This document shows positions 6,864 to 49,913 of a DNA stretch of 56,914 nucleotides, one piece after another. Within the stretch, counting starts at the first letter, position 1, and every line of letters begins with the position of its first letter. The translations under genes and the position numbers were made by a program. A model generated the notes under the pieces. It had not been told where the DNA came from. It did no database searches and worked only from the letters and a program-made list of their open reading frames with translations. The stretch is from Ruminococcaceae bacterium OttesenSCG-928-D13 (lineage in GTDB: Bacteria; Bacillota; Clostridia; Oscillospirales; Ruminococcaceae). The DNA is taken from positions 1-56,914 of the forward strand of contig JAJDIZ010000002.1 of NCBI GenBank assembly GCA_030266915.1. The letters are read 5' to 3'.

Positions 6864-6872
6864 AGGGTTCCC

Positions 6873-31157: not shown

Positions 31158-31168
31158 TCAGAAAAAAG

Positions 31169-31553
31169 TATGGAAGTACAACCGAAAATTATCAAAAGTG
31201 CGACGTCCGATTATCAAAATGCTTCACTCTATTTTTTCTCTATTTCCCTGCGCCACGGTGGCGATTTCCACATCGTAGGCAAGTTGGAAGTTGGACGGGA
31301 GGAACTACTGCGGAATGAGAAACGGACTTCGGCCAGAAGCGGTGTTATTCCCGATTCATCAATAATTTTATTCTATTTTTGCAGTAGTTTTCGTGGCCCC
31401 GCAGGGCCGAGCGGAGTGACCGAAGGGAGCGGAGCGAGGGCCTTTCTGGCAATAAAAAAAGACCCCACCGGGGCCAGTTACGGCCCGGTTGAGGTCAGTG
31501 TGTTTTGGTAATTTAGCGTTAGAACTTTGCTAATTTTTCAGTGCATGTTTTTA
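31169..31553. repeat. 385-bp direct repeat, left copy
   Basis: Identical base for base to 49529-49913; flanks diverge immediately on both sides. Confidence 0.97.
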
Positions 31554-32127
31554 TGGTAACACTGGCCTCGCATTCATCATAGCAAGGGCCGGTGGGCTTG
31601 TCAAGATTATTCGCTCACCCGCATTTTTTGAAGTATTAACATCAACAGCGGCCCGGAAATGGGCAAAAAAAATCCGCCCATTCGGCGGCTTCAATGCGGC
31701 GTATTCTCAAACAGGTTTTCCAACCTTGTTTTTCGTTTTCGTCATTATATTCTCCTTGTCTGTTATTTGCGGCCTGCAAAACCGCAGTGCGAATTGTAGA
31801 ACTTTCGCAATCCCCTCGCTTCGGTTTCTGCAAAGAGCAACCAGCGAAACCAAAACGTTATCGAAACACCCCTATCCTCCTTTGTGGCCCGTTAGGGCAA
31901 ACTAAAAACGCCGACCAAGCGTTTTCGTATTTTATTTAGGGTACAGACGTTCCTTGTAACCCATGCTATAATTCTACACGAAATTGACATAAACGGCAAC
32001 AAAATATTTTTTTGTGCTATTTTTTGTGTACATTAAACATGCGATAGCCACAATAAACGTCCAAATTGGTGATTTTAGACAAGAGAAAAGAGCGGTGGCA
32101 AAACCGCCCCTTCCGATGCTTCTCATA

Positions 32128-32155
32128 AGAACAGGGCCCCGAAGGGCCCCGTCAA
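32128..32155 (-). terminator. Intrinsic terminator downstream of the Big_2 lipoprotein gene
   Basis: Minus strand GACGGGGCCCTTCGGGGCCCTGTTCTT. Confidence 0.7.
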
Positions 32156-32171
32156 TCAAATCAATAGGCGC

Positions 32172-33578
32172 TTATCCGTTCATCACGTAAATGTAGGTTC
32201 CGTCAGAGTGTATGGTTATCGGGGGCGGGTATCCGCCACCCATGTGTACCCAGAAGTCAATATCCGAGCAAATAGCCGCAGTCATCGCTTCGGTGCTAAT
32301 GCTGGTGCTGATGGGCGCACGGTAGGAGCCGCCGCCAGTGCCACTTGTGCAACCTTTGGAAGCGGCGTAAGAATAGCCAGCCGCGATAGCCGAGCCTACG
32401 TCACCGCCCTGGGCCGGGGGAGGAGTTTCTCCACCGCCGCCAGTGTCACCACCGCCGCCACCGCCAGTACCACCGGTGCCGCCGCCTCCGCCAGTACCAC
32501 CACCGCCACCAGCGCCGCCGCCTGCACCACCAGCACCTCCGGTGCCGCCACTGCCATTGCCGCCGCCCGTAGGCGCAGGGTTCTTCACAGTCAGAGTATA
32601 GCTTGCGGACACAGCTTCACTGTACACGTCGCTTTCGCCCGCTTCTTCCTCGGTCAATACACGCTCAATGGGGTTGCCCTCGGCATCCACCACCGTCGCA
32701 GTGATAGTCGCAGTACCAGCCTTCACGGCGCTCATGCGGCCTTCTTCGTTCACGGTCGCCACGCTCTCGTCGCTGGAAGCCCACACGATGCTGTAGTCCA
32801 CGTTGATGTCTTCGGGATTCACCCTGTACTCAATGTTGTACGCCTGACCCTTGGTCAATACGCCCTCGCTGTTGGTGAACTCAATGGCGTTCGGCCAAGT
32901 CTCCACGGCCACGTCAAAGGTCGCCTTGTGTTCCTTCTGGGTAAAGCTGTCCACCACGGTCACGGTGATTTTCGCACCGCCGTTGCCAATCGCAGTCACA
33001 ACGCCGTCGGCGTCCACGGTAGCCACTTCCTCGTTGTCCGAGGCATACGTCGCGTCTTCGTGCTTCGCGTCGGCAGGAGCAACCTTAAAGCCGATTTCAT
33101 GGGTCTCGCCCAGTTTCAGGGTAATGGTTTCCTCGTCCAGCTTCACTTCGCTCACCACGTTCACAACGGTCAGCGCAAGCGTCGCCGTCAAGGGATTCTC
33201 GCCCTCGCCAAGCGTCAGCGTGATAACACACTCGCCGGGCTTCAAAGCCTCAATCTGGCCGTTCGCCGGGTCAACCTTCGCCACGTCGGGCTTGTCGGAA
33301 GTCCATACGGGTGCGAGTTTGGCGATTTCTTCAAGCACTTTTTCGTCTGCGCCCTCGCCGGGTGTGACCTCCACGCCGCCAGCAAAAGCTACGTTCACTG
33401 CGTTTTCGTCAACTGCCGCAGTAACAGTGTAGCCGGTTTGTGAGGTTTCGCCCACCATGAGCGTAAAGTTGGTGTCGGCTAATGCAAGGCCGGTCATTTC
33501 AATTTTGGTGCCAGCACAGCCCGCCAGCATTCCCACCAGAATCAGCGCCACGCATAGCATTGCGGTTGTCTTTTTCAT
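32172..33578 (-). CDS. Big_2 (bacterial Ig-like) lipoprotein with Gly-rich linker
   Basis: Lipobox LAGC; repeats such as WTSDKPDVAKVDPANGQIEALKPGECVITLTLGEGENPLTATLALTV; (GGxGG)n tract. Confidence 0.85.
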   Translation of the reverse strand: MKKTTAMLCVALILVGMLAGCAGTKIEMTGLALADTNFTLMVGETSQTGYTVTAAVDENAVNVAFAGGVEVTPGEGADEKVLEEIAKLAPVWTSDKPDVAKVDPANGQIEALKPGECVITLTLGEGENPLTATLALTVVNVVSEVKLDEETITLKLGETHEIGFKVAPADAKHEDATYASDNEEVATVDADGVVTAIGNGGAKITVTVVDSFTQKEHKATFDVAVETWPNAIEFTNSEGVLTKGQAYNIEYRVNPEDINVDYSIVWASSDESVATVNEEGRMSAVKAGTATITATVVDAEGNPIERVLTEEEAGESDVYSEAVSASYTLTVKNPAPTGGGNGSGGTGGAGGAGGGAGGGGGTGGGGGTGGTGGGGGGDTGGGGETPPPAQGGDVGSAIAAGYSYAASKGCTSGTGGGSYRAPISTSISTEAMTAAICSDIDFWVHMGGGYPPPITIHSDGTYIYVMNG

Positions 33579-33685
33579 TCGTTCGTTCCTCCTGTTAAAA
33601 TCAGTATGGTTTTGTTGCCATCTGATAGACGGTATATTGGGTGGGCGGGTAGGTTTTATATTTATATAAAATTATTTTCTCCCGC

Positions 33686-34822
33686 TCACATAAGCCCTTC
33701 GAGCCCATCGGTGACAGACCCGTCATCCTCGACCGCTCCCTTGTCGCCTTGACCATGGATGGGTTCTCCGCTCTCGCCACCGCCGCCCGATGGGGCGGGG
33801 TCGGCACTTGGGGAGGGGTCGCCTCCACCAGCCGGGGCCGGTGCGGTGCCGCCATTCCCTGTGCCGCTTGCAGGTCGGGGTGCAGACACGCCCACGGTGC
33901 AAACGGCGGTTATCTCGGTGCCGTTTACGGCCACCGTTACGGTGCAGTTCCCCGGTGCCACCGCCTTTACGGTTACGCTGTGGGCGTCCTCGCTGGGGGT
34001 GATGGTGCAAACGGCTTCGTCGCTTACAGTCCATACGATTTCATAAGGTGCGGTTATATTCTCCGGGCCAACTTCTGCCACAAGCTGAAAGGTGCCGCCC
34101 GTTGTCAACCATGCCTCGGCCTGCGTGAGCATGATGCTTTCGGGTGGGGTTTGCACAACGATGCGCACGGTGGCAGTTATCTTCTCGCCGCCATTGTACT
34201 TGTCCTCGGCGGTGATGGTGATGCTCGTTTCCCCATCGGCCAGCCCGGTAATTTCGCCGGTGGCGCTTACCGTCACAATGTCCGGGTTACTACTGGCATA
34301 GGTTAAGCTGGGGTCTGTGGCGCCAGCCGGGGCCAAGGAAGCCGCCAGTATTTGGCTCTCGCCCACAGCAAGGGTGATTTCGTTCTCTGTGGTGATGCTC
34401 TCCACAAGCTGTGCAACGGTCAGCGCAAGCGTCGCTGTCAAGGGATTCTCGTCCTCGCCAATGGTCAGCGTAATGACGCACTCGCCGGGGGCTACAGCGG
34501 TTATTAGGCCGGTGCCAGCGTCCACAGTGGCAATGCCGGTGTTGTCGGAACTCCATACCACGGCGGGTAGCTTCTCTACGGCTTTTTCGTCAGCCTCTTC
34601 GCTGGGCACAGGGTCAATGCCTCCCGGCCCATACGCAACGGTGATGGGCGTATCGCCCACGTTGGCGCTGATGATGTACCCAAGCTGGGCGCTCTCGCCG
34701 GGTGCAAGGGTGATATTCTGCTCGTCTGCTTCTATGCCGGTAACGGTTACGGATGGACTACACGCGGTAAGCATCCCAATCGCCAAAAGTAACGTGATAA
34801 AAAGTGCTGTTGTTTTCTTCAT
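33686..34822 (-). CDS. Big_2 (bacterial Ig-like) lipoprotein, paralogue of the neighbour
   Basis: MKKTTALFITLLLAIGMLTAC lipobox; WSSDNTGIATVDAGTGLITAVAPGECVITLTIGEDENPLTATLALTV. Confidence 0.85.
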   Translation of the reverse strand: MKKTTALFITLLLAIGMLTACSPSVTVTGIEADEQNITLAPGESAQLGYIISANVGDTPITVAYGPGGIDPVPSEEADEKAVEKLPAVVWSSDNTGIATVDAGTGLITAVAPGECVITLTIGEDENPLTATLALTVAQLVESITTENEITLAVGESQILAASLAPAGATDPSLTYASSNPDIVTVSATGEITGLADGETSITITAEDKYNGGEKITATVRIVVQTPPESIMLTQAEAWLTTGGTFQLVAEVGPENITAPYEIVWTVSDEAVCTITPSEDAHSVTVKAVAPGNCTVTVAVNGTEITAVCTVGVSAPRPASGTGNGGTAPAPAGGGDPSPSADPAPSGGGGESGEPIHGQGDKGAVEDDGSVTDGLEGLM

Positions 34823-34846
34823 ATCAAAAATTCCTCTTTTCAAATC

Positions 34847-36364
34847 TTACCCGTTGCGCCGGGCCTCTAAAAAAGGCTCGTAATTGCGCCGTGCAACGAT
34901 GGCGGGTTTGCCGTGGATGTTGTCAGTTCCAAACTCGATATATAATTCCAGCATTTCATCTTGGCCGGGGAAATACAGTTCGTAGGACAGATAGACATCG
35001 GGTTCATCATCATAGATGCCGCTACGTGACAGGTCGAAAACTCCGCTCTCAAACGTGGCTTCCATTGCCGCTTTCATCTGTTCATAATTCATGCCGAGGT
35101 CGATTCCAAAAACGCTGTACCTATCACTGTAAATGGTCAGCCAGCGGTATTCATCTTCCGGGCCGTAGGCTCTGGTGTAGTCCAGTTCGGATGCTTCCGG
35201 CGAATCCTCGCCCGTGTGGGGATTGGAGTAAAAAGTGACACCATAATTAAACGTTTCCCACTGCCAGCCAATGTAGGCGGGTTCATCAACATTCGGTAAC
35301 AGCGGCACAGTGTATTCCGGCGCTCCGGCTATCTGTTCCAGCAGGGCCAAATCATCAAACCCGGCCTCTGCCTCATGGGGTAGCGTCATGGTGAAGTCCA
35401 GCGCGGGCCTCTCGCTCAAACGTGGGTCACGCTGGGGTGGCTGGCTCACACTGGATGAAGCCGGGGCTGGGATGCTCTGCACGATGGAGGACGGCGGCGG
35501 TGCTGGTTCCTCGCTGGGCCGGGTTGCAAGGAAAATCCCGGTTCCGATGCCGCCAGCCAAAACAGCGGACGCAACCCCAATGGCGATTTTTGCGGTCAAG
35601 GTCATGCCGGTTGCTGTTGCCGTTCCTGTACCCGCCGCCGCAGTGCCAGTCGTGGCCGCAATGGTGCCTGCCGCCGCCTGCGTGATGCTCTGCAAAATGG
35701 CGCTTTGGGTGGTGAGGCTCGGCGCAGTTGCCAAAGCATCTTTTGCAAAAATGCCAAACAGAGCAATGGCGGAAATGCTGTGCAGACGGACGCCGGATTT
35801 TTCTTCCTCTTTTTCCACTCCGGCCTTAATCTTTTTTCGGGCATAGTTCAGTTGGGATTTGATAGTATTCTCGTTGGTGCCTGTTACCTCGCTTATCTGT
35901 TGGATGGTGAGTTCTTGATAGTAATACATCAAAACCACTGCCCGTTGCTGGTCGGGCAGGCTATCCACAATCCGCAAAATTAGCTGTTTAATGTCCTCCC
36001 GTTCCAGCACGGCGTCAGGCTGGTCGCCGTTGTCGTCTTCCACGTCGGGCAAGGTGCTGTCGGCATCATCACCCACCGGCGCAAAAAGCACTTCGGTTTT
36101 CTTTTTCATTCTATTGGTACACTGGAACGCTGTAATCTGCTGAACCCATTTGAAAAAAGATTCGGGAGTTTCCAACTTACCAAGGTCGCGGTAGGCAATA
36201 AGGAACACATCCTGTGTCACCTCTTGGGCGCTATCTTCATTCCTCAAGATTTTGCGGGCAGTGTAGTATGCGTTGTTGAAACTTTCTGCATAAAGTGCCG
36301 CAAAGGCCTCTTGGTCGCCCTGCTTGGCCTTTATCACCAGTTGCCGCAGTTCTGTTTTTTCCAT
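34847..36364 (-). CDS. ECF-type sigma-70 factor with C-terminal TM segment and predicted extracytoplasmic domain
   Basis: Sigma2 AFAALYAESFNNAYYTARKILRNEDSAQEVTQDVFLIAYRDL; sigma4 LPDQQRAVVLMYYYQELTIQQISEVTGTNENTIKSQLNYARKKI; TM IAIGVASAVLAGGIGTGIFLA; about 220 aa beyond it. Confidence 0.88.
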   Translation of the reverse strand: MEKTELRQLVIKAKQGDQEAFAALYAESFNNAYYTARKILRNEDSAQEVTQDVFLIAYRDLGKLETPESFFKWVQQITAFQCTNRMKKKTEVLFAPVGDDADSTLPDVEDDNGDQPDAVLEREDIKQLILRIVDSLPDQQRAVVLMYYYQELTIQQISEVTGTNENTIKSQLNYARKKIKAGVEKEEEKSGVRLHSISAIALFGIFAKDALATAPSLTTQSAILQSITQAAAGTIAATTGTAAAGTGTATATGMTLTAKIAIGVASAVLAGGIGTGIFLATRPSEEPAPPPSSIVQSIPAPASSSVSQPPQRDPRLSERPALDFTMTLPHEAEAGFDDLALLEQIAGAPEYTVPLLPNVDEPAYIGWQWETFNYGVTFYSNPHTGEDSPEASELDYTRAYGPEDEYRWLTIYSDRYSVFGIDLGMNYEQMKAAMEATFESGVFDLSRSGIYDDEPDVYLSYELYFPGQDEMLELYIEFGTDNIHGKPAIVARRNYEPFLEARRNG

Positions 36365-36406
36365 GATGTTTCCCCTTATATATATAATGAAGTTGGTTGC
36401 TGGCGT

Positions 36407-36670
36407 TCACGGTGGGCGGGGCCACAGGTCGAACAGGGCCAGCAGGGTATTTCGTTCGGCTTCCGGGTTTCTGTGCGCTTCGGCGTCCTCTTGTAGCGCC
36501 GCCATGATTAAGGCGTCCAGTTCGGACAAGTCCGGGCCGTCTCTTATTTGTTCTATGATGCCCACCCCCTTGTGTCTCTGCATAACGGTATCGCAGAGGG
36601 CAGGGGTGGTTTTATTCCGGGTGAAAAAAGTCTTTTTGTGTGTCCCTCCCGGTTTTTGACGGCTGGACAA
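36407..36670 (-). CDS. Small hypothetical protein upstream of the sigma factor
   Basis: Open frame co-oriented with the sigma-factor operon; start uncertain. Confidence 0.35.
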   Translation of the reverse strand: MSSRQKPGGTHKKTFFTRNKTTPALCDTVMQRHKGVGIIEQIRDGPDLSELDALIMAALQEDAEAHRNPEAERNTLLALFDLWPRPP

Positions 36671-36788
36671 ATCTACACATTATAGCATAATTTGCCATTC
36701 CGTCAACACCGTTATAACATTTTATCGTCCTATAAAACGGACGTCAACCCTTACAATATGATTATCTCTTGAAAATGAGGTAATCACG

Positions 36789-37037
36789 ATGGCAAAAGGA
36801 ATCCAGCAGGCATTTGTGCGTCAGCTTAAAGTGCAGATGAAAGCCCGTAAAATCACCGCATACAGGCTGGCATACGACGCCGGGGTGCCATACAGTACGG
36901 TAAAAAGTATACTGGACGGCAAGAGCAGAGCAACCAACATTGTCACCATCAAAAAGCTACTGGATGCAATGAAGCTGTCAGTGCCCGACTTCTTCAGTGC
37001 AGACGATTTTGCACAACTGGAACAGGAAATCAAGTGA
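36789..37037 (+). CDS. XRE-family HTH regulator (small)
   Basis: KARKITAYRLAYDAGVPYSTVKSILDGKSRATNIVTIKKLLDAMKLSVPDFF. Confidence 0.85.
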   Translation: MAKGIQQAFVRQLKVQMKARKITAYRLAYDAGVPYSTVKSILDGKSRATNIVTIKKLLDAMKLSVPDFFSADDFAQLEQEIK

Positions 37038-37233
37038 CGGCCCTGCCAAACTGGCGGGGTTTTGCTTTGTGTACAAACACTGTGCAAAGCTGTGTACAAA
37101 AGCACAAAGCCGAAATATTACGATAATACAAGCATAATCACCACCTCCTTTTTCTTTTACACGTTGTTTGCACGGAGTTCTGTACAAAAGGTTTTGTTTG
37201 TTAATATTCAAGATACCTGGGGCCTTGCGGCCC

Positions 37234-37890
37234 CTATTTTTGTTGCCAAACCATTTGCTCGTTGCAATCCCCGCACATGATGTTGACCATCTTTGTTGCT
37301 CGCACCGATGTACCGCAACATGGGCAAACATACTTCCGGCTGTTGCTGGTGGTTCTACCTGTTGGCGGCAGTGTTCCAGTTCCGGCGCTCCCGGCTCCGG
37401 CTCCACCGCGAGGCACAAAAGACCATTCACGACGTGCCATGTCGATGTCAGTCCAAGCCTGTTCGATGATAAAATCAAGCAATCCCTCTGTCGGCTCCGT
37501 AATGCTCCAGCCAATCCGCTTGTCGTAGCTGATGGAGAGGTCGCGCTTTTCGGCCTCGACCTTGAAGCGTTTGTTATGATACTGCCCCGCGCGCGAAACA
37601 TCTTTAATATCGTTAGCCAGACAAAAAAGGTGTACACACTCATGTAAAAGGGTGGCCGTGACTTCCTCAATGGGCCTGTCCAGCGTCCCGGCCCCAATGT
37701 TCAATTCGTGGCGGCTCTCTTGGCCTTTTCGCCAGCTTTTACCCACCGTCACATGACCATAGGCGCGGGGTGTGCTCTGTATGGTAATGATGGGTTCTTC
37801 CAACTGACCTTCAAAGTATTTTTCATTGAGCGCCCGAAACATCTTTTCCAAATACCCGGCTGTCCTCGATGTCTTAACGGTCTTTTTCAT
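37234..37890 (-). CDS. SprT-like zinc metallopeptidase with C-terminal zinc ribbon
   Basis: LLHECVHLFCLANDIKD...HNKRFKVEAEKRDL; C-terminal CPCCGTSVRATKMVNIMCGDCN. Confidence 0.83.
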   Translation of the reverse strand: MKKTVKTSRTAGYLEKMFRALNEKYFEGQLEEPIITIQSTPRAYGHVTVGKSWRKGQESRHELNIGAGTLDRPIEEVTATLLHECVHLFCLANDIKDVSRAGQYHNKRFKVEAEKRDLSISYDKRIGWSITEPTEGLLDFIIEQAWTDIDMARREWSFVPRGGAGAGSAGTGTLPPTGRTTSNSRKYVCPCCGTSVRATKMVNIMCGDCNEQMVWQQK

Positions 37891-38090
37891 GTTTCGTACC
37901 TCCATAATTTTTTGTTGGCCCCAACTTGGGGCTTAAAAACCGTTTCCGGCTGTAATTAACAAAAAAGCCGCTGTCCGGGGTGGTCAAGAGCACCGTGGAA
38001 TAAGGCCCTACCTTATGCCGCGAAAGGCTCTTTACCGCCGCAGAGGACGGCGGGTTATTATATCCGTCAGCCGAAACGGTATCACAAAAT

Positions 38091-38186
38091 GCCCTGCCAG
38101 CAGGCAGGGCTACAACGCACTTGTTCTTGACCTTTGGCCCTTAACGCTTTACCCGGACTATGATTTATCATATCCGGGTAAAGCGT
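38091..38186. repeat. Two adjacent strong inverted repeats
   Basis: GCCCTGCC-AGCA-GGCAGGGC (38091-38110); ACGCTTTACCCGGA-C-TATGAT-TT-ATCATA-TCCGGGTAAAGCGT (38144-38186). Confidence 0.75.
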
Positions 38187-38346
38187 CTAAAGGGTCGCTG
38201 GGTGTATATATCGGGGCAGATGGTTACTGGGCGTGTCCGAAAAAAGCCGTCACAGGTGTCGGCTCCGGGTGATACAATCACCCATCCGAATTGACATACT
38301 TTGCAATTTATGGTATAGTTTCGAACGTTGCTACGAAAATTAGTTG

Positions 38347-38375
38347 TTGCACACCTCTTTTAGATATGGTATAAT
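38347..38375 (+). promoter_or_regulatory. Sigma-A type promoter
   Basis: TTGCAC - 17 bp - TATAAT. Confidence 0.8.
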
Positions 38376-38381
38376 TAATAT

Positions 38382-38680
38382 GTACAAACCCACATTGCCA
38401 AAACAACACCCGTTACCGGGCTGAAAGCATCAGATGGCACGCCGTGGCATTAAAACCATCTGGTGACGGTGGGTATGGACTGCACAGGATTGAATCTTCA
38501 TATTCAAAACTGCAACCAAGCTGGGAAGGGTCAGCGAAAAATCCGTGAATGGCCTTAACCTCTGGCAGAGAATGTGTAAGTGGAGCCGTGGTTATCCCAT
38601 GCAGTCCTCGCGCGAAAGCGCCGTCAGCAACGAGACGTAAAAACCCGTTGTTGGCCGAGAGGCCTTTAAGGAATTATTTA
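38382..38680 (+). ncRNA. Candidate structured noncoding RNA or long leader upstream of the integrase; family not recognised
   Basis: Long-range helix GGACTGCA/TGCAGTCC; CAGATGG/CCATCTG; TTGAAT/ATTCAA; two GNRA-capped hairpins (GCGC-GAAA-GCGC, GGCC-GAGA-GGCC); strong promoter upstream and terminator downstream; no ORF. Confidence 0.65.
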
Positions 38681-38710
38681 AAACAAAAAAACTAAACACC
38701 GAAAATCCAC

Positions 38711-38765
38711 CACAGACAATACCACCCAATTTTGAACGGGGATGGTTTTAGGTCTGTTTTTTTAT
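38711..38765 (+). terminator. Intrinsic terminator or attenuator between the structured RNA and the integrase
   Basis: ACAGACAATACCACCC...GGGGATGGTTTTAGGTCTGT followed by TTTTTT. Confidence 0.75.
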
Positions 38766-38785
38766 TGCACGGGGGGTGATAAAAA

Positions 38786-39655
38786 ATGAGAAAACGAGGG
38801 TCTTTACAATTCGAGGCGAATCAGGCGCTTGAAAATATGAAAGCGTTTGGACGAAGCCGTGATGCTGACAAGAAAGCCGGTGTAACCAAAGACAAAATTT
38901 ATACATATAAAACCATGCGCACTTACCAACACCAAGCTGGACGTTTCATCGAGTGGGTTCGTGGTCAGGATGAGAATAAGAAAACGAAGACGCTGGAACA
39001 GTCCCGCGAATGGGTAGACGCATATATCCAGCATATGAAAGATAGAGGCGACAAGGCCGCCAGTCAGGCAACTGCGGCGGCGAGCCTCGCCAAGTTGTTC
39101 CAATGCTCCAAGAGCGATTTTGCGCCGACTGACCCGGTACGCAGGGTTGATATTGAGCGTTCCCGCAACGAGGTTCCCAGCGACAACCGTTTCAGCGAGG
39201 AAAAAAACCGTGACCTTGTGGACGTGTGCAAAGCAACTGGCCTCCGACGCTGTGAGGTGTCGGCTTTGCGGCCCGATTGGTTGCGTGGGGATGCACAGGC
39301 TGGGTTTCGCCTGTCAATCCCGCCCGGTATCGCCAAGGGCGGACGACCACGCGAGTTACCAATAAGAGGTGAAACGGCGGCGAAAGCGGTTGAGGTTATA
39401 CGCCGCACGTTCGCCGGAAATCGCGTTTTCCCACGCGTCCATACACACGCTGACATTCACGCCTACCGCGCCGAGTACGCCAACAGCTACTACAGGGAGT
39501 TGGCGCGTGATGTGCGTACACTCCACCGTTCCGAGCGATACGATTGTCGAAAAGACAAGGCCGGTATCCATTATGACCGTGCGGCAATGAAGGCGGTCAG
39601 CGAGGCTCTGGGACACACGCGAGTCTCGGTAATCGCCAGCAATTATTTGATGTGA
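38786..39655 (+). CDS. Tyrosine recombinase / integrase
   Basis: ATGLRRCEVSAL (Arg I), GIAKGGRPRELPI (Lys), HAYRAEYA (HxxR), ALGHTRVSVIASNYLM (H...Tyr). Confidence 0.88.
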   Translation: MRKRGSLQFEANQALENMKAFGRSRDADKKAGVTKDKIYTYKTMRTYQHQAGRFIEWVRGQDENKKTKTLEQSREWVDAYIQHMKDRGDKAASQATAAASLAKLFQCSKSDFAPTDPVRRVDIERSRNEVPSDNRFSEEKNRDLVDVCKATGLRRCEVSALRPDWLRGDAQAGFRLSIPPGIAKGGRPRELPIRGETAAKAVEVIRRTFAGNRVFPRVHTHADIHAYRAEYANSYYRELARDVRTLHRSERYDCRKDKAGIHYDRAAMKAVSEALGHTRVSVIASNYLM

Positions 39656-40496: not shown

Positions 40497-40504
40497 GCGA
40501 GCGC

Positions 40505-40545: not shown

Positions 40546-40742
40546 CATTTGGGCTTTGGTGCTGGTGCCGAGTGTGCGTAGCACATTTCAACGGCTCCTT
40601 TCTTTTCTGCAAGGGCTTTCTGCAAAGGACTTTATGCGTGTGGCTCCTAATGGAATGGGCCGTGTTTGTTCAATTCTACGGGTAGGTCAAGGACGGTGAT
40701 GTTCAAAAAACAAATTCCTCACCCGTAGCCCTTCCCGATACT

Positions 40743-40886
40743 CTTGATACCTTGATACCTTGATACGTTGATACTTCTTTTAAAAAAATTATCAATAGTA
40801 TCAAGTGGTAGTGTTTGACTTGATACCCGTAAAACGGCTTGAAATCGGTATATTGGGGGGTTCGGTATCAAGTATCAAGGTATCAG
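40743..40886. repeat. CTTGATAC/GTATCAAG iteron array overlapping the 3' end of the RepA-like gene
   Basis: CTTGATAC at 40743, 40751, 40759, 40819; GTTGATAC at 40767; GTATCAAG at 40798, 40865, 40872; GGTATCAG variant at about 40880. Confidence 0.85.
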
Positions 40887-42066
40887 CGACACCAGCGTTT
40901 TCGTCAACGTTGGAGTTCTCTGAAAAATTGGCCTCACCCGAATAATCGTTCAACGTGATTTGCTCGGCATCTTCATCGTCTACATCGACAGGCGTTGAAG
41001 TAGGAGAAACAAGGCGACTGAAACGATACGTCCTGTCTTTCGTGCTTGTGGGGCGGTCACATCGAACGTGGTCGCGTTCCAGCAATAAGGCGCTGAATTT
41101 CTTAAACCGCTTACCAACCTCATTGCTGACCAGCATCTCCCCGGTCACGTTCATCACATCCGCCATAAAGTCCGACGGTTTTGTTTCAAAGCCGCTCGGC
41201 TCCTGTGCCAGCCTGTGAAGGATGGTTCTTACAACCGGGTCTTGGCTGTACGCCATCACACGCTGGTGCCGTTCCAGTTCTTCCCGTGAGCCGCGATACT
41301 TCCAAATACAATCCTCGCCGTCAAACTCGACCACAAAAGACGTTTCTTCGGTTTCGCGGGAGGTGTAATAAAGGGTTGCAATTCTGTCCTCGGAATTGCC
41401 CCGAGAATGGCGTTGAAGTACCATTGCGAAGTCTACGCCACCAAAGATGCCCTGCCCGCCCAAGATGCTATCAAAAGGGTTTTCCGGGTTCTTCTCTTGC
41501 CTGTTATGGTGAACAAGCAAAACACAAATATTGTGCTTGTCGGCGATTGCTTTAAGCGCCGCCATTTCGGTTGTATCCATCCCATAGAAATTCTTGTTAC
41601 CGTAGTTGCGGTCAGGTCGAATGCGTTGGAAAACATCAATAATTACAATAGTGGTTTCGGGAAAATCGGCCATGTGGTTGTCAATCTCGGCTTCCAACCC
41701 AGCCCCAAGAATACTTGCCTCGGTACGCATTCGCAAACGCTCATTCGGAGCCACTCCCAGCGCGGTAGAAATTTTACGCACCCTGTCCTGCAAACGCCTC
41801 TCGCCGTCCTCCAGCGCCATATAAAGCACGTCGCCTTTGTGGGTCGAGTGTTCAAGAAAAGGGATACCTTCGGTGATACAGATGCCCATTTCCATCATCA
41901 TCATGCTTTTGCCAGCTTTCGGGTCGGCACTGATGATACCCAAGCCTTGATGCACAAGTCCCTCAACCACCCACAGCAGAGGCGGCAGTGCCTTTTGGTC
42001 AAGTTCTTTCGCGTTTTGTGTCGTAATCTTCAAAATAATGTCCTCCTTTATAATTTTTTGTTTCAT
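40801..42066 (-). CDS. RepA-like hexameric AAA/RecA-fold ATPase (AAA_25 type)
   Basis: Walker A SADPKAGKSMM; VIIDVFQRIRP; CVLLVHHNRQ; resembles plasmid replicative helicase RepA. Confidence 0.87.
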   Translation of the reverse strand: MKQKIIKEDIILKITTQNAKELDQKALPPLLWVVEGLVHQGLGIISADPKAGKSMMMMEMGICITEGIPFLEHSTHKGDVLYMALEDGERRLQDRVRKISTALGVAPNERLRMRTEASILGAGLEAEIDNHMADFPETTIVIIDVFQRIRPDRNYGNKNFYGMDTTEMAALKAIADKHNICVLLVHHNRQEKNPENPFDSILGGQGIFGGVDFAMVLQRHSRGNSEDRIATLYYTSRETEETSFVVEFDGEDCIWKYRGSREELERHQRVMAYSQDPVVRTILHRLAQEPSGFETKPSDFMADVMNVTGEMLVSNEVGKRFKKFSALLLERDHVRCDRPTSTKDRTYRFSRLVSPTSTPVDVDDEDAEQITLNDYSGEANFSENSNVDENAGVADTLILDTEPPNIPISSRFTGIKSNTTT

Positions 42067-42140
42067 CTATTGAAACACACCCCCGGTTTGTCCGGGTTGG
42101 TGTGGAAAAAATTTCCAAGTTTGGTACATTGCCGAGGCTG

Positions 42141-42521
42141 TTATTCGCCTACAGCGGCGGCATAGATGTCGCCAATGAGGTCGCTCTCGCCGGTGCCACA
42201 GAAGGTGGAAATGAGGCAATCGACACCCAAGCCCTCATCTTTGGGGATACAGAGCGTGAAATCCGTTACCCGCATGGTCTTGATGCGCTCATTAGGGATG
42301 CCCTGCTTACGAAGCCGGACAATGGTCTCGTCGGCCCACGATTCCCCTTCCTCGCCCAGCGCGGGAAAAATAATCACCCGTTCGCTGACCTCAATATCAT
42401 GGAAAAAGGGTTGAACGTCGCCACGGATGCGGTGAATGGCTTTAAACCCCGAACGGACAAGCGCAATGGCATCAGTGAGCGTTGGTGTAAGAAAAACGAC
42501 GTTAGAAATAGACAAAGGCAT
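42141..42521 (-). CDS. Toprim-like protein (DnaG/OLD-type fragment)
   Basis: VVFLTPTLTDAIALVRSGFKAI...VIIFPALGEEGESWADETIVRLRKQGI; upstream of the RepA-like gene. Confidence 0.5.
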   Translation of the reverse strand: MPLSISNVVFLTPTLTDAIALVRSGFKAIHRIRGDVQPFFHDIEVSERVIIFPALGEEGESWADETIVRLRKQGIPNERIKTMRVTDFTLCIPKDEGLGVDCLISTFCGTGESDLIGDIYAAAVGE

Positions 42522-42524
42522 ATG

Positions 42525-43556
42525 TTAATTCTCTCCATCTTCGATAACATTCTGCCAACGAACGTTCGCAGATGGCATTGCGCTCTCTATTTTTTGGACA
42601 ATACTTCTTCCCCACGCCTCTTCGCTTTTTCCGAAAGAAAAAACAAAGAAGCCTGGATTTTTAAGTTTTTCCAGCGGTGGAATAGAAGTATAGAAGGTTA
42701 TATTCATCTTTTTTTCCGCCGCTGTTTCCTGTAACATATCCGCCATTTCTTTTGTTTTCACAATACCGACCATGTCAATCATTTTTTTTCCGTCAAGCAT
42801 GATTTTGCCATAGTAGTCTGTCTGCATCGGGGATTCTGTACTGAAAATGAGATTTTCATAATAAGAGAAATCCTCACACCCTTCCATGATATAAGCCATT
42901 TCTTCGACTACGTCTTCATCCTCTGGAAAGATATTGTCGCTATTGGTGAAAAGGCCCATGAAAGCCCAGCCAGCAGTGCGGCATCCACCCAAAATTTCCA
43001 CCTCGTAATATGTGCTTTTGAGTGCGCTCTCATCCTGCTTTACAAATGTGCGGTATTCATCCAAAGTATGACCCCGAAAATACCTCCCAGTGTCCTCATG
43101 GTTGTAAAAATACGCTTCAACAAATAGTATTCCGTCTCTAAACATTATTCTGCTGATACTCATGAAGTGGTGGTACACACTGGTGAGTATGTTGCACTCC
43201 ACTTCGATAGCCTTTTTCAAATTCCTTATATGGACTTTACCAGTGTGAGCAACTGGAATGGACATCACGACACTTCCAAACTCTTTATCCATGCTGAAAA
43301 AAACATCCTTTTTACAAACGGCATCTTTACAAACGGCATTGTGTTTCTCGAACTCATCAAAGGAATACATGTTCTGTTTGACCTTCCTTTTTCCCAGCTT
43401 TCTAACAGATGCGTTATACAGCATCTGCAAATCCATATAGGTAAGCATAAAAAAGGGAGCATCGTCCTCATTGAGCTTGCGAGGGGCGACAGGCGTGGAC
43501 TTCCCACTGTTGATTTTCTCGTAGTATTCTTCGATTTTTTTTAATTTCGTGTTCAT
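42525..43556 (-). CDS. Hypothetical protein, unknown family
   Basis: 343-aa ORF in the replication operon, AT-rich. Confidence 0.75.
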   Translation of the reverse strand: MNTKLKKIEEYYEKINSGKSTPVAPRKLNEDDAPFFMLTYMDLQMLYNASVRKLGKRKVKQNMYSFDEFEKHNAVCKDAVCKKDVFFSMDKEFGSVVMSIPVAHTGKVHIRNLKKAIEVECNILTSVYHHFMSISRIMFRDGILFVEAYFYNHEDTGRYFRGHTLDEYRTFVKQDESALKSTYYEVEILGGCRTAGWAFMGLFTNSDNIFPEDEDVVEEMAYIMEGCEDFSYYENLIFSTESPMQTDYYGKIMLDGKKMIDMVGIVKTKEMADMLQETAAEKKMNITFYTSIPPLEKLKNPGFFVFSFGKSEEAWGRSIVQKIESAMPSANVRWQNVIEDGEN

Positions 43557-43840
43557 TCTATATCCTCCATTTAATTTTATATTTGACTAAAAACGTAAAA
43601 AACATCCCTCTTATCGCTTGGGATGATGGCGTTCACATCATCCGGGGGTGCCCGTCCTCGGTATCTACCGAGATAGTTAGCACCTCTGTTAAGCGTAAGA
43701 AAGATGTATACAAACATAATAAACCTCCTTTTATTTTTTCGTTATCACGCCCTTTCTGGTCGGCCGAAATGGTTTTATGTGAATGACGGGTGGGTCAACT
43801 GATAGGTGGATTATACCATGATTCTTTGAATATGTCAAGC

Positions 43841-43874
43841 AAATATTGACGATATAATTTATTCGTCAATATTT
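43841..43874. promoter_or_regulatory. Inverted-repeat operator between divergent genes
   Basis: AAATATTGACGA - 10 nt - TCGTCAATATTT, followed by further TTGACG half-sites. Confidence 0.7.
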
Positions 43875-43941
43875 ATGTATTGACGCTTTCGTGTTGACGA
43901 CAATATATGAGCGTGATATGATTGGTTTTGGAGGTGCGAAT

Positions 43942-44682
43942 ATGAAAGAGCAAGATTTAGGCGAAATAAGCATTTTTGGGCAACGGTTACGTGCATTGCG
44001 AAACTCTTGGAATCCTCCGATGTCCTCACAGGATTTAGCTACGGAACTTGGTTATAAATCTGATGCAACTGTCAGAAACTGGGAGAATCCAAAACGGCTT
44101 GACAAAAACAGCGAGGATGAAAAAAAATGGATAATGCCTCCCATTGATAAAATCGCACAAATAGCCGACATCTTTTCGTGCAGTGTAGATTATCTGTTGG
44201 GAAGAACGGATGTCATAAATGAAGAGCGATTAGAGGGTATGAGTGAAGATTTAAGTGAACTACATGCGACCCTATCCCGCTACGGCCTATATGGTGATAA
44301 GTTCTTTAACCTCATTCAAAAATATCTTAAAACAATGACAACGGCTATCGGTGACACGCCATTTGGCAAAAAAAACCTATTCTTCAACTATTTTGAGATG
44401 TTGACCATGATGGACGAAGCGACCCGCATATCGCTTCTGTTGCCTAAAAAAAATGATGTCAATGAATCATCCAATATTGTAGATGTAAGCAAAGTTGTCG
44501 TTGGCACAGCAAACGCAACACAACGCATTCACGGGTTCCATAAAAAAGCTCAAGACTCTTTTGCCCAATACTTCAAGATACTTTATGATATGACCGAGGA
44601 TGCCTATTTAGATATTGCCAAAAGTGATAGTGAGAAAAATGTCATCGCCGCAATAGTGAAAGCTCATACAGACCCGGTCTAA
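43942..44682 (+). CDS. XRE/Cro-CI family repressor
   Basis: FGQRLRALRNSWNPPMSSQDLATELGYKSDATVRNWENPKRL...IADIFSCSVDYLLGRTD; RBS GGAGGTG. Confidence 0.85.
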   Translation: MKEQDLGEISIFGQRLRALRNSWNPPMSSQDLATELGYKSDATVRNWENPKRLDKNSEDEKKWIMPPIDKIAQIADIFSCSVDYLLGRTDVINEERLEGMSEDLSELHATLSRYGLYGDKFFNLIQKYLKTMTTAIGDTPFGKKNLFFNYFEMLTMMDEATRISLLLPKKNDVNESSNIVDVSKVVVGTANATQRIHGFHKKAQDSFAQYFKILYDMTEDAYLDIAKSDSEKNVIAAIVKAHTDPV

Positions 44683-44706
44683 TATGTACCAGCCAGTATA
44701 AAGAGA

Positions 44707-44738
44707 AAAGGCCCTGCCATCATCGGCAGAGCCTTTTT
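44707..44738. terminator. Terminator between convergent XRE and tniQ genes
   Basis: AAAAGGCCCTGCC-ATCATC-GGCAGAGCCTTTTT. Confidence 0.75.
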
Positions 44739-44751
44739 GTTTTGGAAACCA

Positions 44752-45783
44752 TCACGATACCAACCCATAAATCTTTCCCCAGCGACGCACCGTTCCGGGG
44801 TCGATGCCCAACCTCCGTGCAATAGCCTTTTGGGGTTCTCCCTTTTCCAGCCCCTTGCGAATTTCTGCGATTCCGTCAACCTTCTTGGGTTTTGAAAATA
44901 GACTTTCAAAACCGATACCCATAAAATGTGCTACCTGTAAGATGAAGCGTGGGGCCGGGTTCTTGGCGTAACCAAAAGTTACAGTTAGGCGAAGCTGGCT
45001 CACATCATCATCAGGCACAAAATCATCATAGAACACCCGCATAGCCTCTGCCATTTCCCGTGTTTTCGTCCATCGTCCTGTCACTGGTCGCCAACCGTGC
45101 CGTTTTAAGCCCTCGTCCAGCACGGCGGTGTGTATGCCGCCATCGGCTTTCAAGTCCAGCGGCGAAGCCAAACAGGCACCATACAGCGCCGATAAATCGC
45201 GCTCTTGCTGGCTCGCCTCTCCCTGCCGGACGGCTGACAGTTCCATCCCCAGCAGGGCCGGGCGAAAAGTCACCTCGCAGTCGGTAAACGGCACACCCGT
45301 ATCACACAGCCAGCACCCGTGCGTTGTGCAGATGCGAAGGTCTACAAGCTGGTGTGCCCGGTGCCAGTAGGGTTCGCCATACTGGGCAATGTCATCATGA
45401 TAGCACTCCGGGCAGTAGCGGAAAAAGGGGTGCCGCTCACCGCTTATGGTGTTCATGCCTACCAGCATTACGGCCCTGCCGCCACCGTGGGTTAGTTCAT
45501 GTACAACATTTTGCTTGCGTTCGGCGCTCCAAAACCGGGCGTAGTAGGGTAGTAGTGTGTGCTGGACCAGTATATCTACAGGTTTCATATAAGGCGCATG
45601 CAGATTGCCCATGACAACCGCCAGTTCGGTTGCCAGTTCCAGTGACACCCTGCCCTTGTACCGGCCAAACAAATCACGGACGCTTTGGGTGGCACAATAA
45701 TTCCCGCTCCGAAGGTGATACCGGGAAAGCACCGAAAACCACAGTTCATCCGGGTAAGGTGTAGGCAGAAAAGACAGGCTCAT
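44752..45783 (-). CDS. tniQ: TniQ/TnsD-like target-selection protein
   Basis: LPTPYPDELWFSVLSRYH; zinc motif YCPECYHDD...CTTHGCWL; C-terminal HTH QKAIARRLGIDPGTVRRWGKIYGL. Confidence 0.88.
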   Translation of the reverse strand: MSLSFLPTPYPDELWFSVLSRYHLRSGNYCATQSVRDLFGRYKGRVSLELATELAVVMGNLHAPYMKPVDILVQHTLLPYYARFWSAERKQNVVHELTHGGGRAVMLVGMNTISGERHPFFRYCPECYHDDIAQYGEPYWHRAHQLVDLRICTTHGCWLCDTGVPFTDCEVTFRPALLGMELSAVRQGEASQQERDLSALYGACLASPLDLKADGGIHTAVLDEGLKRHGWRPVTGRWTKTREMAEAMRVFYDDFVPDDDVSQLRLTVTFGYAKNPAPRFILQVAHFMGIGFESLFSKPKKVDGIAEIRKGLEKGEPQKAIARRLGIDPGTVRRWGKIYGLVS

Positions 45784-47081
45784 AATATGGCAACCTCCGT
45801 AACGTATTCGGCGAGAGCATCCACCACTGGCTTACCCTGCTTTTTGGCATCTACGACGATAGCCCGAAGGTCGGCCCTGCCGGTGGTTTGGTGTGGTTCC
45901 AAGCTTTGAGTATTAACATTCAAATCACCCGTACCCGGTTTTGGTGCTGTTCTCTGGCGCTTGGGGGTATCGTCCAGCGAAGCGAGAAAGCCGTCAACCA
46001 TCTGTAAACTGCCTTTGTAGGCCCGTTCCAGCGTGTCTATTGTTACGGCTTCCGTGCCGTCCATGATGGCCCGTTGCTGGGCATGGTAAATCAGCTTCAC
46101 CATAATATCGGGCACACCCTGCGTTTTGCGATAAATCCAGTTCGCAACCTCCGGGGTGAGGTCGGCAGAGTTCCGGGTGTACTGGTAGCGCCATAAGGAT
46201 TTTAACAAAAGCGAAAACTCGTCATTGTTCCCCAGCCGGTCATACACAAGGCCGGTGGCTCGGCGGGCACTCCGAAATTCAGCTTGCAGGGTGCCCAGCA
46301 CTTGCGGGGTGCCAACCATGCAGACGGACAAATGCGCGGAATTTATTAGCTGAACAATAAAATTTAATAGCCGGATTCCACCGCCGTTGCGTATGTGGGC
46401 AATGTTCTGTATCTCGTCCACCACCAAAAGGCCCAAGTTGATACTCTTGCTGATTTGGCTTATCTGGCTCACCATCATATCAGCGGATAGCCTGTTGGTC
46501 ACGGCTCGCTGGTGATGCGCTGTACCACTGGCACCATCTATCTGTAAGAGAATGTCAAGGCAAAGGGCTTTGATTGAAGCATCGGAGGGGGTCTGTACAA
46601 CAATGTAGGGTATCTGCTTACACACAAGCGGTTGCCCGTTGTAGGCTTCGTGCTCAATGACAGGTGGGAACAGGCCAAGCACCTGTTGAAGTGCCCGCGA
46701 TTTTCCCAGCCCGCTAATGCCGATAACGGAAAAGCTATTGCCACCACCTGTCGCGGCAGTGATGCGGCGGTTTTGAAGGTCTGTATAATTGGTGTGATAC
46801 TGCTGAACATCGGCCACGGTCAGTTTTTGGGCAAAGCTGTGTTGCATGGCGGCGCAGACTTGATAGTACAACTGTACGGTCATTTCAAGCGGCTGGTATA
46901 CTTCATATAACGTCCCCAACATCTGCAAGCGCACTTCTGCTGGTAACTGGCGGCTGGATTCGTCATAAGGCGGAAAGTGACCGAGAGCATCAACAAGGGC
47001 CTGCCCGCCCAGCGTAGGCGGTAGGGCCTCTATGAACGGGTTGCCGGGGTATGCCGGGTTTGGCGTATATACTGCTTTCAT
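45780..47081 (-). CDS. tnsC: TnsC/TniB-like AAA+ transposition regulator
   Basis: Walker A VIGISGLGKSRAL; Walker B LGLLVVDEIQNI; overlaps tniQ and tnsB. Confidence 0.9.
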   Translation of the reverse strand: MKAVYTPNPAYPGNPFIEALPPTLGGQALVDALGHFPPYDESSRQLPAEVRLQMLGTLYEVYQPLEMTVQLYYQVCAAMQHSFAQKLTVADVQQYHTNYTDLQNRRITAATGGGNSFSVIGISGLGKSRALQQVLGLFPPVIEHEAYNGQPLVCKQIPYIVVQTPSDASIKALCLDILLQIDGASGTAHHQRAVTNRLSADMMVSQISQISKSINLGLLVVDEIQNIAHIRNGGGIRLLNFIVQLINSAHLSVCMVGTPQVLGTLQAEFRSARRATGLVYDRLGNNDEFSLLLKSLWRYQYTRNSADLTPEVANWIYRKTQGVPDIMVKLIYHAQQRAIMDGTEAVTIDTLERAYKGSLQMVDGFLASLDDTPKRQRTAPKPGTGDLNVNTQSLEPHQTTGRADLRAIVVDAKKQGKPVVDALAEYVTEVAIL

Positions 47082-48940
47082 GCTCCATTCCCCCTTAAAA
47101 TCTCAAACACACTCGGCTCTTGGCGCTGTTCTGCGGCCCGGTTCGCCCGGATGCCCGTTGATATGGTCTTGACTGTCTGCGGCTCTACAGGTGTAGCCTG
47201 TGCCGCAATATCCTCAATGTCTGCAATCAAGGACACCCGCGCTTGCAACTCCTGTTGTTGATATTGAGATTTCAAGTTTTTTTCATCCTTCCGTAGCTGG
47301 GTCAGTTCGTCTAATGTCTTGCCCCTGTATTGGCTCTGAACGACTTCAAACGGCGTGTACACCATGCTCTCATACAGCCACACGGTGCCTATATCATCAG
47401 GATTGTACGCCACCGTCACCTTCTCTTTTCCCCTCATCCCTGCGGTCACAAACCGCTTGTTGTAGGCGCTGTTATTATAATGGATGCCGTTCACTTCAAG
47501 GCCCTTTTGGGTAAACCCGCCCTGTATGCGAGGCAACAAAGCCAACGTGAAGCGTCCAGCATCCACCGTGGGCAAGGCTCCCTCCGGCTGGGCCATACCA
47601 TGCAACCACAGTTTTGAAGCAACAGGCGGCACATCAGCCGCAATCTGGCTTTCCGTGCGCGGGTAGTTCTGCATTATGTGTTCAGAATTGTAATAAAGAA
47701 CGCACCGTATGACGATTGCCGTAAACTGCTCCAAATCCAAAGTGCTATCCTTGCGGTAATCATGCCCGCCGCGCTCTTGGAAGTCTGGTTCAATAACACC
47801 TTTCCCCTTCAAGTGCGGCTTGTAGGAAGTCTGCAACAGGTCAAACAGCTTTTCCACCGGGCCTTTGAGGTCAGGCCGGTAAGCAGGCAAGTTTACAATC
47901 TCTATCCCATATTCACTACACAGGTTTTCCAACACGTCACCGATAAACTCTTTGCCCCGGTCTGTGAGGATGCGCCGGGGTAGGTGGTGAGCGGGCCATT
48001 GCTCCGGGTCTATTTCGATTCCGTGTTGCTGGCAATACTCGGCCTTGTGCATGATGGTGTTCGCCAAAAGCATCCGCAAGCCGTGTTTGCCGCCCTCCAA
48101 GCCCACATACAAGCCAGTTATCATGTTGGTATGAGCATCCACCATCGTATAGATGATGGGGCGACCTATCACCTTGCGAGAAAATCGGCTGACAATATAG
48201 ATGTCGGCTATCGTTGCGTCCGTCATAAAAGTGCCGATTTCAGCGGCGTATTCCCTAACGCTCCCGGTAAAGGCTCTGTGGTTCCTCTGATAAGCCTTTA
48301 GCCCCTTGCGACTGATAGCTTCGTTCACGGGGTCACGGGTGGAGTAGAAAAAGTAGCGGAATTGGTGAAAAGATGGGTACGGCTCCTGTAGGGTGCCGTG
48401 GGCATCGGTATATTTTTCTTTGAGCATCAACGTGTAGGCATTTTTCAAGGTGTGTTGCAGAGGGGAATAGTAAAAACGGTTGAGCGCCCAGCGTATGTTT
48501 TTCTGGTCAGCGGTCAGCGGCGGTGGCTCCTTCTGCTGGCGCTCGGAAGGTAACAGGGCATTGCGGCTCTGCGCCACCCAATAGCGCCAGAGATAGCTTT
48601 TGACGGTCTGCATCCCTACACCCGCATAAACGGATACATCATGGATTATTCGGTTTCGATGGGCCTTGTTTGTGATGCACTCCACCGATAGTAATGGCTC
48701 TATCAGCGAATACCGTTTGTCGCGAGTTTCCTTCTGTCTGGGTTCCAATTCTTCATCCGTATAGGGAATACGGTATTCATTGGTGCTGACAGGCTCCATA
48801 TCATCCAGGATGTCATTATCCAACATGAACGGCATCCGACACCGCGAACAATCCACCACCCAGCTTGCAGGGTCAGACAGCACCAAAACCCGCACCGTCA
48901 GCCCAGCATCCCGTAAAATGTCATTCTCTCTCATGGTCAA
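47078..48940 (-). CDS. tnsB: TnsB-like DDE transposase
   Basis: DDE core: TDATIADIYIVS (D), RILTDRGKEFIG (D), YRPDLKGPVEKLF (E); Mu-type C-terminal region. Confidence 0.93.
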   Translation of the reverse strand: MTMRENDILRDAGLTVRVLVLSDPASWVVDCSRCRMPFMLDNDILDDMEPVSTNEYRIPYTDEELEPRQKETRDKRYSLIEPLLSVECITNKAHRNRIIHDVSVYAGVGMQTVKSYLWRYWVAQSRNALLPSERQQKEPPPLTADQKNIRWALNRFYYSPLQHTLKNAYTLMLKEKYTDAHGTLQEPYPSFHQFRYFFYSTRDPVNEAISRKGLKAYQRNHRAFTGSVREYAAEIGTFMTDATIADIYIVSRFSRKVIGRPIIYTMVDAHTNMITGLYVGLEGGKHGLRMLLANTIMHKAEYCQQHGIEIDPEQWPAHHLPRRILTDRGKEFIGDVLENLCSEYGIEIVNLPAYRPDLKGPVEKLFDLLQTSYKPHLKGKGVIEPDFQERGGHDYRKDSTLDLEQFTAIVIRCVLYYNSEHIMQNYPRTESQIAADVPPVASKLWLHGMAQPEGALPTVDAGRFTLALLPRIQGGFTQKGLEVNGIHYNNSAYNKRFVTAGMRGKEKVTVAYNPDDIGTVWLYESMVYTPFEVVQSQYRGKTLDELTQLRKDEKNLKSQYQQQELQARVSLIADIEDIAAQATPVEPQTVKTISTGIRANRAAEQRQEPSVFEILRGNGA

Positions 48941-49314
48941 GCCTCCTTTTCAATGACGATGCCCCAATCGGTCACACCTTGTTGGTACCAATATTCCAGC
49001 GAGAGTTGTAACAGGTCAATCACGCTCTGACGGGGTAAGATATGCCGAAAAACACACTCGCGTACTGCCATAGTCCCATCTGTCTTTTTTATAAGAAAGT
49101 CGCTCATGTGCGAAGTTGGTGGCGCTGGCAGGTCTGACGGCAACGCGGTTTTTTTGAAATCAAGTGGTATGTTCATGGAAAACTCGGACACGTTTTCATC
49201 GGTGTTAAGCTGGCGGGCGTATGCCTCCATCAGCTTATCGTGACATCTGCATATCTGCTGGTTCTTATCGAGGCTGATTTTTGCGCAACGGTTTTTTTGG
49301 CTCGTTCTCCGCAT
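48937..49314 (-). CDS. tnsA: Short TnsA-like endonuclease subunit (125 aa)
   Basis: SHMSDFLIKKTDGTMAVRECVFRHIL...LLQLSLEYWYQQGVTDWGIVIEKE, resembling the TnsA N-terminal domain; first gene of the tns operon. Confidence 0.75.
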   Translation of the reverse strand: MRRTSQKNRCAKISLDKNQQICRCHDKLMEAYARQLNTDENVSEFSMNIPLDFKKTALPSDLPAPPTSHMSDFLIKKTDGTMAVRECVFRHILPRQSVIDLLQLSLEYWYQQGVTDWGIVIEKEA

Positions 49315-49328
49315 GGTGTTTCCTTCCT

Positions 49329-49423
49329 TTCAGTCCGGGGTCAATCCGGGTTCAGTCCGGCTTTTTCGGGATAAAAGGGCGTTTTGGGGGTTCAATCCGG
49401 GGTCAATCCGGGTTCAGTCCGGC
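49329..49423. repeat. Two arrays of three 11-bp iterons upstream of tnsA
   Basis: TTCAGTCCGGG/GTCAATCCGGG/TTCAGTCCGGC (49329-49361) and TTCAATCCGGG/GTCAATCCGGG/TTCAGTCCGGC (49391-49423), each followed by TTTTTC; inverted GCCGGACTGA at 49506-49515. Confidence 0.93.
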
Positions 49424-49528
49424 TTTTTCAAAAATATCCTCACCTCTATTCTGACGAATTAACAGCCCTTTTTTCGCATATATTAAAAACCCGGATAGCC
49501 GGGATGCCGGACTGACTGAAAACCACTA

Positions 49529-49913
49529 TATGGAAGTACAACCGAAAATTATCAAAAGTGCGACGTCCGATTATCAAAATGCTTCACTCTATTTTTTCTC
49601 TATTTCCCTGCGCCACGGTGGCGATTTCCACATCGTAGGCAAGTTGGAAGTTGGACGGGAGGAACTACTGCGGAATGAGAAACGGACTTCGGCCAGAAGC
49701 GGTGTTATTCCCGATTCATCAATAATTTTATTCTATTTTTGCAGTAGTTTTCGTGGCCCCGCAGGGCCGAGCGGAGTGACCGAAGGGAGCGGAGCGAGGG
49801 CCTTTCTGGCAATAAAAAAAGACCCCACCGGGGCCAGTTACGGCCCGGTTGAGGTCAGTGTGTTTTGGTAATTTAGCGTTAGAACTTTGCTAATTTTTCA
49901 GTGCATGTTTTTA
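49529..49913. repeat. 385-bp direct repeat, right copy, ending 6 bp from the rplL stop codon
   Basis: Identical to 31169-31553. Confidence 0.97.
49813..49860 (-). terminator. Intrinsic terminator of the rplJL operon, inside the direct repeat
   Basis: Minus strand GACCTCAACCGGGCC-GTAACT-GGCCCCGGTGGGGTC-TTTTTTT; the same hairpin is at 31453-31500. Confidence 0.8.

Follow-up and report, generated by a model that had tools for sequence, protein, structure and literature searches.

The window analysed here, a 56,914-nucleotide stretch of DNA, carries an insertion of 18,745 bp (31169-49913) between rplL and a terminator that now stands beyond the far end of the insertion (Table 1). GC content changes from about 0.6-0.68 outside to about 0.40-0.59 within this island. 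Two direct copies of a 385-bp unit, here called M, bound it, with the near copy adjoining rplL and the far copy at an offset of 18,360. The tnsA-like gene, tnsB, tnsC and tniQ sit on the rplL side and are transcribed away from rplL, and together with the cargo they occupy the space between the two M copies. Elsewhere in the window, a T-box leader (13147-13392) and a ribosomal L10 leader (50908-51061) are ordinary regulatory RNAs.

Table 1. Coordinates and strands of features in and around the island
Feature	Position	Strand	Basis
TSD, left, AAAAG	31164..31168	.	sequence comparison
Far M, 385-bp LTR-like unit (b-end, terminator, a-end), same as near M	31169..31553	-	repeat identity
Putative TnsB sites, b-end of far M, same as near M	31185-31222		repetition and symmetry
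Putative TnsB sites, a-end of far M, same as near M	31500-31537		inferred
Cargo-side flank of far M, TGGTAACACT outward, TRGWR flank	31554..31563	.	
Cargo: two Big_2-domain proteins	32172..34843	-	
Cargo: ECF sigma factor, long C-terminal extension	34847..36364	-	
Cargo: SprT-like protein	37234..37905	-	
Cargo: XerC/XerD-like tyrosine recombinase	38786..39655	+	
Cargo: AAA_25 ATPase resembling replicative helicases	40801..42066	-	
Cargo: uncharacterised protein, 343 aa, weak Csm4-like match (E 0.0016)	42525..43556	-	
Cargo: phage-repressor-like helix-turn-helix regulator	43891..44682	+	
tniQ/tnsD-like target selector, C-terminal helix-turn-helix	44752..45783	-	
tnsC/tniB AAA+ ATPase	45780..47081	-	
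tnsB, DDE transposase, 620 aa	47078..48940	-	
tnsA-like, 125 aa, TnsA fold, altered catalytic residues	48937..49314	-	
Cargo-side flank of near M, TAGTGGTTTT outward, in conserved TRGWR flank	49519..49528	.	
Near M, 385-bp LTR-like unit adjoining rplL, same as far M	49529..49913	-	repeat identity
Two putative TnsB sites, b-end of near M (AAAATTATCAAAAGT, GATTATCAAAATGC)	49545..49582	+	repetition and symmetry
Promoter-like TTGATA-18-GATAAT in b-end, into tnsA, overlapping putative TnsB sites	49548..49577	-	
Intrinsic terminator in M, rplL direction	49821..49835	-	
Two putative TnsB sites, a-end of near M (AAAATTAGCAAAG, AAATTACCAAAACAC)	49860..49897	-	inferred
TSD, right, AAAAG, 1 bp from the rplL stop codon	49914..49918	.	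sequence comparison
rplL, target gene, insertion directly downstream of stop codon	49920..50291	-	

Outer junctions of the island and the make-up of M

The two M copies are identical at 385 of 385 positions, and the sequences outside them diverge at once, as a sequence-only reading of this DNA had reported; also confirmed were its observations that 6 bp separate the right copy from the rplL stop codon and that this copy holds a terminator, which acts in the rplL direction. That reading had regarded the repeats as not a standard transposition footprint, which is wrong for the outer junctions. AAAAG stands directly outside the repeat pair on either side as a perfect 5-bp target-site duplication (TSD), and this TSD had escaped notice together with the inverted transposase-type end motifs at both edges of the 385-bp unit. 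The island is a real Tn7-like insertion with the layout TSD-M-island-M-TSD, since the AAAAG duplication lies outside the repeats, which makes a misassembly or a pair of att sites of a tyrosine recombinase unlikely. The oddity of the element is the complete pair of transposon ends at each terminus, not its outer footprint.

The earlier suggestion that M is an unusually long att identity, used by the tyrosine recombinase of the island for site-specific integration, can point to the XerD-like gene carried inside the island. Against it, the 5-bp duplication lies outside the repeats, where an att island would have none, the repeat edges are Tn7-like transposon termini, and the target genes vary among the relatives (rplL, tsf, gatB, guaA, nrdR and others). 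We consider this origin unsupported and extremely improbable.

Across the source genome (a 2.37-Mb draft assembly in 229 fragments, 67.6% complete) the 385-bp unit occurs in two copies in total, and a search of 150 relatives of the window did not find it, so that within this set its own genome alone carries this M. A dispersed repeat was ruled out, the unit being present in two copies only in the source genome. A tandem insertion of two independent elements was also rejected, because duplications would then remain at the inner junctions and these are absent. An empty site had been proposed as a check; within the genus, the rplL neighbourhood of G004 differs (another terminator, no element) and therefore provides no exact empty allele.

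As read from its sequence, M is a small unit with the order a-end, terminator, b-end: the two transposon ends are inverted, the terminator serves the target gene, and a candidate promoter would serve tnsA. It measures 385 bp in the window and about 220-430 bp among relatives. One edge reads TATGGAAGTACAACCG, followed by AAAATTATCAAAAGT and GATTATCAAAATGC, and the opposite edge, inverted, reads TAAAAACATGCACTGA, followed by AAAATTAGCAAAG and AAATTACCAAAACAC; at both edges the first putative site starts 16 nt in. Inverted arrays of putative TnsB sites at both ends are a Tn7-like trait, although the standard arrangement, with one a-end and one b-end at opposite termini, gives way here to both ends within each terminal repeat. 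The terminator in M apparently replaces the native rplL terminator displaced by the insertion. Tandem repeats (TTCAGTCCGGGGTCAATCCGGGTTCAGTCCGG) occupy 49329-49429, between M and tnsA, and relatives carry different but analogous repeats or palindromes in this interval, for example TTTTTGGGA; these are perhaps regulatory.

The products of the transposition genes are those of a Tn7-like element. TnsB belongs to the DDE transposase family of Tn7 TnsB (Pfam rve and Mu-transpos_C; E 6e-60 against Tn7 TnsB, 7PIK), and it is accompanied by a TnsC/TniB ATPase and a TniQ selector. Pfam scans of the island genes gave no reverse transcriptase. The TnsA homologue matched Tn7 TnsA by profile (E 9e-5), and its predicted structure (pLDDT 89.8) matched 1T0F (2.7e-7) and 1F1Z. 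The catalytic residues of Tn7 TnsA, which we take to be E63, D114 and K132, were traced by profile alignment: M29 stands in the place of E63 (most relatives have Q there), the invariant D72 corresponds to D114, and K132 falls on R90, or on V88 if a gap is moved, the alignment around K132 being ambiguous. Of the three residues on which cut-and-paste by TnsA would depend, D114 alone is kept. The homologue is thus probably a weak or inactive nuclease, judging by these substitutions. In G143a the glutamate at the E63 position is retained, so that such inactivity would not be uniform. TnsA mutated in its active site no longer supports cut-and-paste, while replicative transposition still proceeds (PMC8649781).

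Second copies of M among clostridial relatives

Searches with TnsB brought up relatives across Clostridia. Their target genes, assigned by inspection of C-terminal residues, include guaA, tsf, gatB, nrdR, rsmI, polC, a pyruvate-phosphate-dikinase-like gene and a peptidase-like gene, alongside rplL in the window. The order at the near end was the same in nearly every readable relative, namely gene 3' end, a-end, terminator, b-end and tnsA, with the a-end usually starting TGT or TGA and the b-end usually finishing ACA. The a- and b-ends were more alike within one element than between elements (2 of 20,000 permutations were as good).

A second direct copy of M was found in seven further elements of related gut bacteria, 7-54 kb away, and most of these have a 5-bp duplication outside the pair. 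Three of the seven pairs are base-identical within one contig and one is so across two contigs, which with the window makes five identical pairs out of eight. At gatB in G124 the copies agree at 425/425 positions (54.8 kb), flanked by the TSD GCCGA, inside a 1.55-Mb contig, and at nrdR in G1123 at 238/238, 38.7 kb apart, with the TSD TGAGC on a 524-kb contig. The G1190 pair (270/270, 23.8 kb) has no TSD match, while that of G911 (90% identity, 7.4 kb) is flanked by ATTCC. The remaining three are at tsf: G963 (225/225 over two contigs, TSD AATTG), G227 (87%, TSD AATTG) and G143b (88%, TSD one base short). A partial second copy is present in G198. In G471, G279, G225 and G1099 a far copy was not found within the 14-25 kb of sequence of each. 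A control set of six near-complete genomes with ordinary clostridial Tn7-like elements, with longer TnsB, gave no such repeats (0/6) within the 60 kb read.

These pairs bear on the possibility that the layout in the window is an assembly artefact, with a single copy at rplL or the island belonging elsewhere. The source genome is indeed fragmented; the outer duplication nevertheless matches, and the same architecture, with 5-bp TSDs, lies inside long contigs of two other species, G124 and G1123. The misassembly allowed for by the sequence-only reading is accordingly highly improbable.

The pairs bear equally on a cut-and-paste movement of the whole 18.7-kb unit by its outermost ends, in which the inner ends would be carried along and owe their likeness to gene conversion or a recent duplication. 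The outer ends are properly inverted and flanked by a 5-bp duplication, the element has a TnsA homologue of matching fold, and cut-and-paste followed by gene conversion between the copies would be expected to look similar. On the other hand, the internal b-ends keep their terminal ACA in nearly all relatives, for which this mode has no need, five of the eight M pairs are base-identical, and the catalytic residues of the TnsA homologue are altered. We regard whole-unit cut-and-paste as unlikely.

Several further observations were made on the relatives. Many draft contigs of these elements (L109, L110, L111, L043, L045) end within or near M or tnsA, which would be expected if identical M copies break assemblies, and surveys may overlook the far copy on this account. 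A short copy of the 3' tail of guaA, either GAGTGGGAATAA or a version differing at one base, lies on the cargo side beyond the a-end in some elements (L041/L053 of G198, L044 of G225, L042 of G461 and L113 of G549), preceded by sequence that is not guaA. Contig L156 (G861 C34) holds, at about 6840-7180, the decayed remnant of such an element downstream of gatB, and the same G861 genome has another element at tsf.

A solo M, exchange between copies and a proposed circular donor

The tsf site also carries M by itself. In G299 one M of 224 bp has AATTG on both sides, the 20 kb read there contains no tns genes, and this is a solo M; as a short unit with inverted ends, a TSD and no transposase, it answers to the description of a MITE. 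Among the tsf copies, the near and far types of G143b take turns from segment to segment: the near copy of G227 has a far-type interior and its far copy a near-type interior, and in the G299 solo M a near-type interior is joined to a far-type end. This segment-wise alternation is the signature of recombination between M copies.

Such recombination could also have built the pairs. In a Campbell-type integration, a solo M would have been at rplL first, and an M-bearing circle would then have joined it by homologous recombination, giving the same end structure and duplications; the solo M known at tsf and the recombinant mosaics of near and far M there fit this. It requires, however, a pre-existing identical M at every new site, whereas fully identical pairs are found at five different target genes, and solo M was not found in relatives of the window or of G124 (in the G124 family the search returned a-end pieces only). 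This route seems quite unlikely to us.

Contigs of G892, G852, G225, G461 and G549 run from the far cargo end through M to the tnsA side. These junctions fit a circle or a tandem, and assembly across the repeat, or a collapsed M, could also yield them. One contig of G143a leads from the b-part of M across the genes and back into the a-part, the two parts overlapping by 18 bp. A plasmid search with TnsB returned distant relatives only, at 28-31% identity.

The cargo-side five bases next to M are conserved in inverted orientation, reading TRGWR outward in most cases (22 b-sides and 9 a-sides), and the ten-base flanks were more alike within an element than between elements (51 of 20,000 permutations were as good). 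The outer flanks of M are plain target sequence. One possibility is that both TRGWR flanks (YWCYA-M-TRGWR) come together only on an M borne by a circle and mark the active donor there, so that the circle alone may be licensed to act as donor.

Taken with these findings, the reading that we favour, and hold to be rather probable, is that a circle made up of the island and a single M inserts through replication of M, and that later recombination between the two M copies frees this circle, with a solo M staying behind. The donor in the window would have the junction AAAACCACTA-(385 bp)-TGGTAACACT. TniQ and TnsC would pick a housekeeping gene, here rplL, at its 3' end, and TnsB would attach M to the target by both ends. 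With second-strand cleavage apparently beyond the TnsA homologue, M would then be replicated, and the whole circle would come to lie between two identical M copies with the 5-bp duplication outside. In Tn7 relatives lacking TnsA activity, the replicative product consists of two direct transposon copies around the donor, with the target duplication outside (PMC11406308, PMC8649781). If M is equated with that transposon and the island with the remainder of a donor circle, the layout, the identity of five of the eight pairs and the position of the tns genes outside M would all be explained, and homologous recombination between M copies would explain the solo M and the mosaics. The sequence-only reading had already raised a circular form with one repeat, and this part of its interpretation has gained from the solo copy, the near/far exchange and the circle-type junction contigs of the relatives, while its att, misassembly and non-standard-footprint readings have lost ground.

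Some findings sit less easily with a replicating and recombining circle: neither a circle nor a donor was seen, G1190 has no TSD match, the far copy was not found in several relatives in the sequence read, and G143a keeps the glutamate at the E63 position. On inspection, replication genes were also not obvious in the islands of G124 and G143b, so that there the circle would need excision to form.

Comparison with known systems

A search of open-access text, most subscription journals being outside its coverage, did not find this arrangement described. By every gene feature tested the core of the element is Tn7-like, and what differs is the architecture of the ends and TnsA. With Tn7 and Tn7-like elements it shares TnsB, TnsC, TniQ and a TnsA homologue, a site just downstream of a conserved gene, a 5-bp TSD and arrays of end sites. 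In contrast to these, each terminus here comprises both ends and a terminator in a direct repeat, the transposition genes stand outside the repeat unit, and TnsA is short with altered catalytic residues.

The cointegrate formers without TnsA, Tn5053 and type V-K CAST, share the expected direct transposon copies around a donor with a 5-bp duplication outside. Their duplicated unit contains the transposition genes, whereas the unit here is about 0.2-0.4 kb and contains none. IS26 translocatable units (PMC6952201) and the B. thailandensis megacircle (PMC6350997) likewise have a circle with one repeat and an integrated form between two direct copies. Their repeat is, however, an insertion sequence that encodes the transposase, as the flanking repeats of a composite transposon do; here M is 385 bp, and tnsB lies outside it, within the island of a targeted Tn7-like element.

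If the proposed cycle is true, this is a targeted DNA transposon whose moving unit is split from its own transposase genes, and whole circles of about 7-55 kb integrate downstream of housekeeping genes, bringing a replacement terminator with them. It would then be a DNA-transposon analogue of LTRs. The likeness to LTR retroelements is one of function and not of membership, no reverse transcriptase having been seen here. Shared are long direct repeats with a promoter and a terminator, a short duplication outside, strand transfer of the DDE type, near-identical repeats in young insertions and solo repeats arising by recombination; the TG...CA repeat termini of LTRs are matched in most relatives, while those of the window are TA...TA. 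That this clostridial Tn7-like lineage has converged on the life cycle of LTRs, with a 0.2-0.4-kb unit alone recognised and copied, the tns genes carried along by the circle, direct repeats that start out identical and solo repeats where the element has been lost, is an idea to which we give a little less than an even chance.
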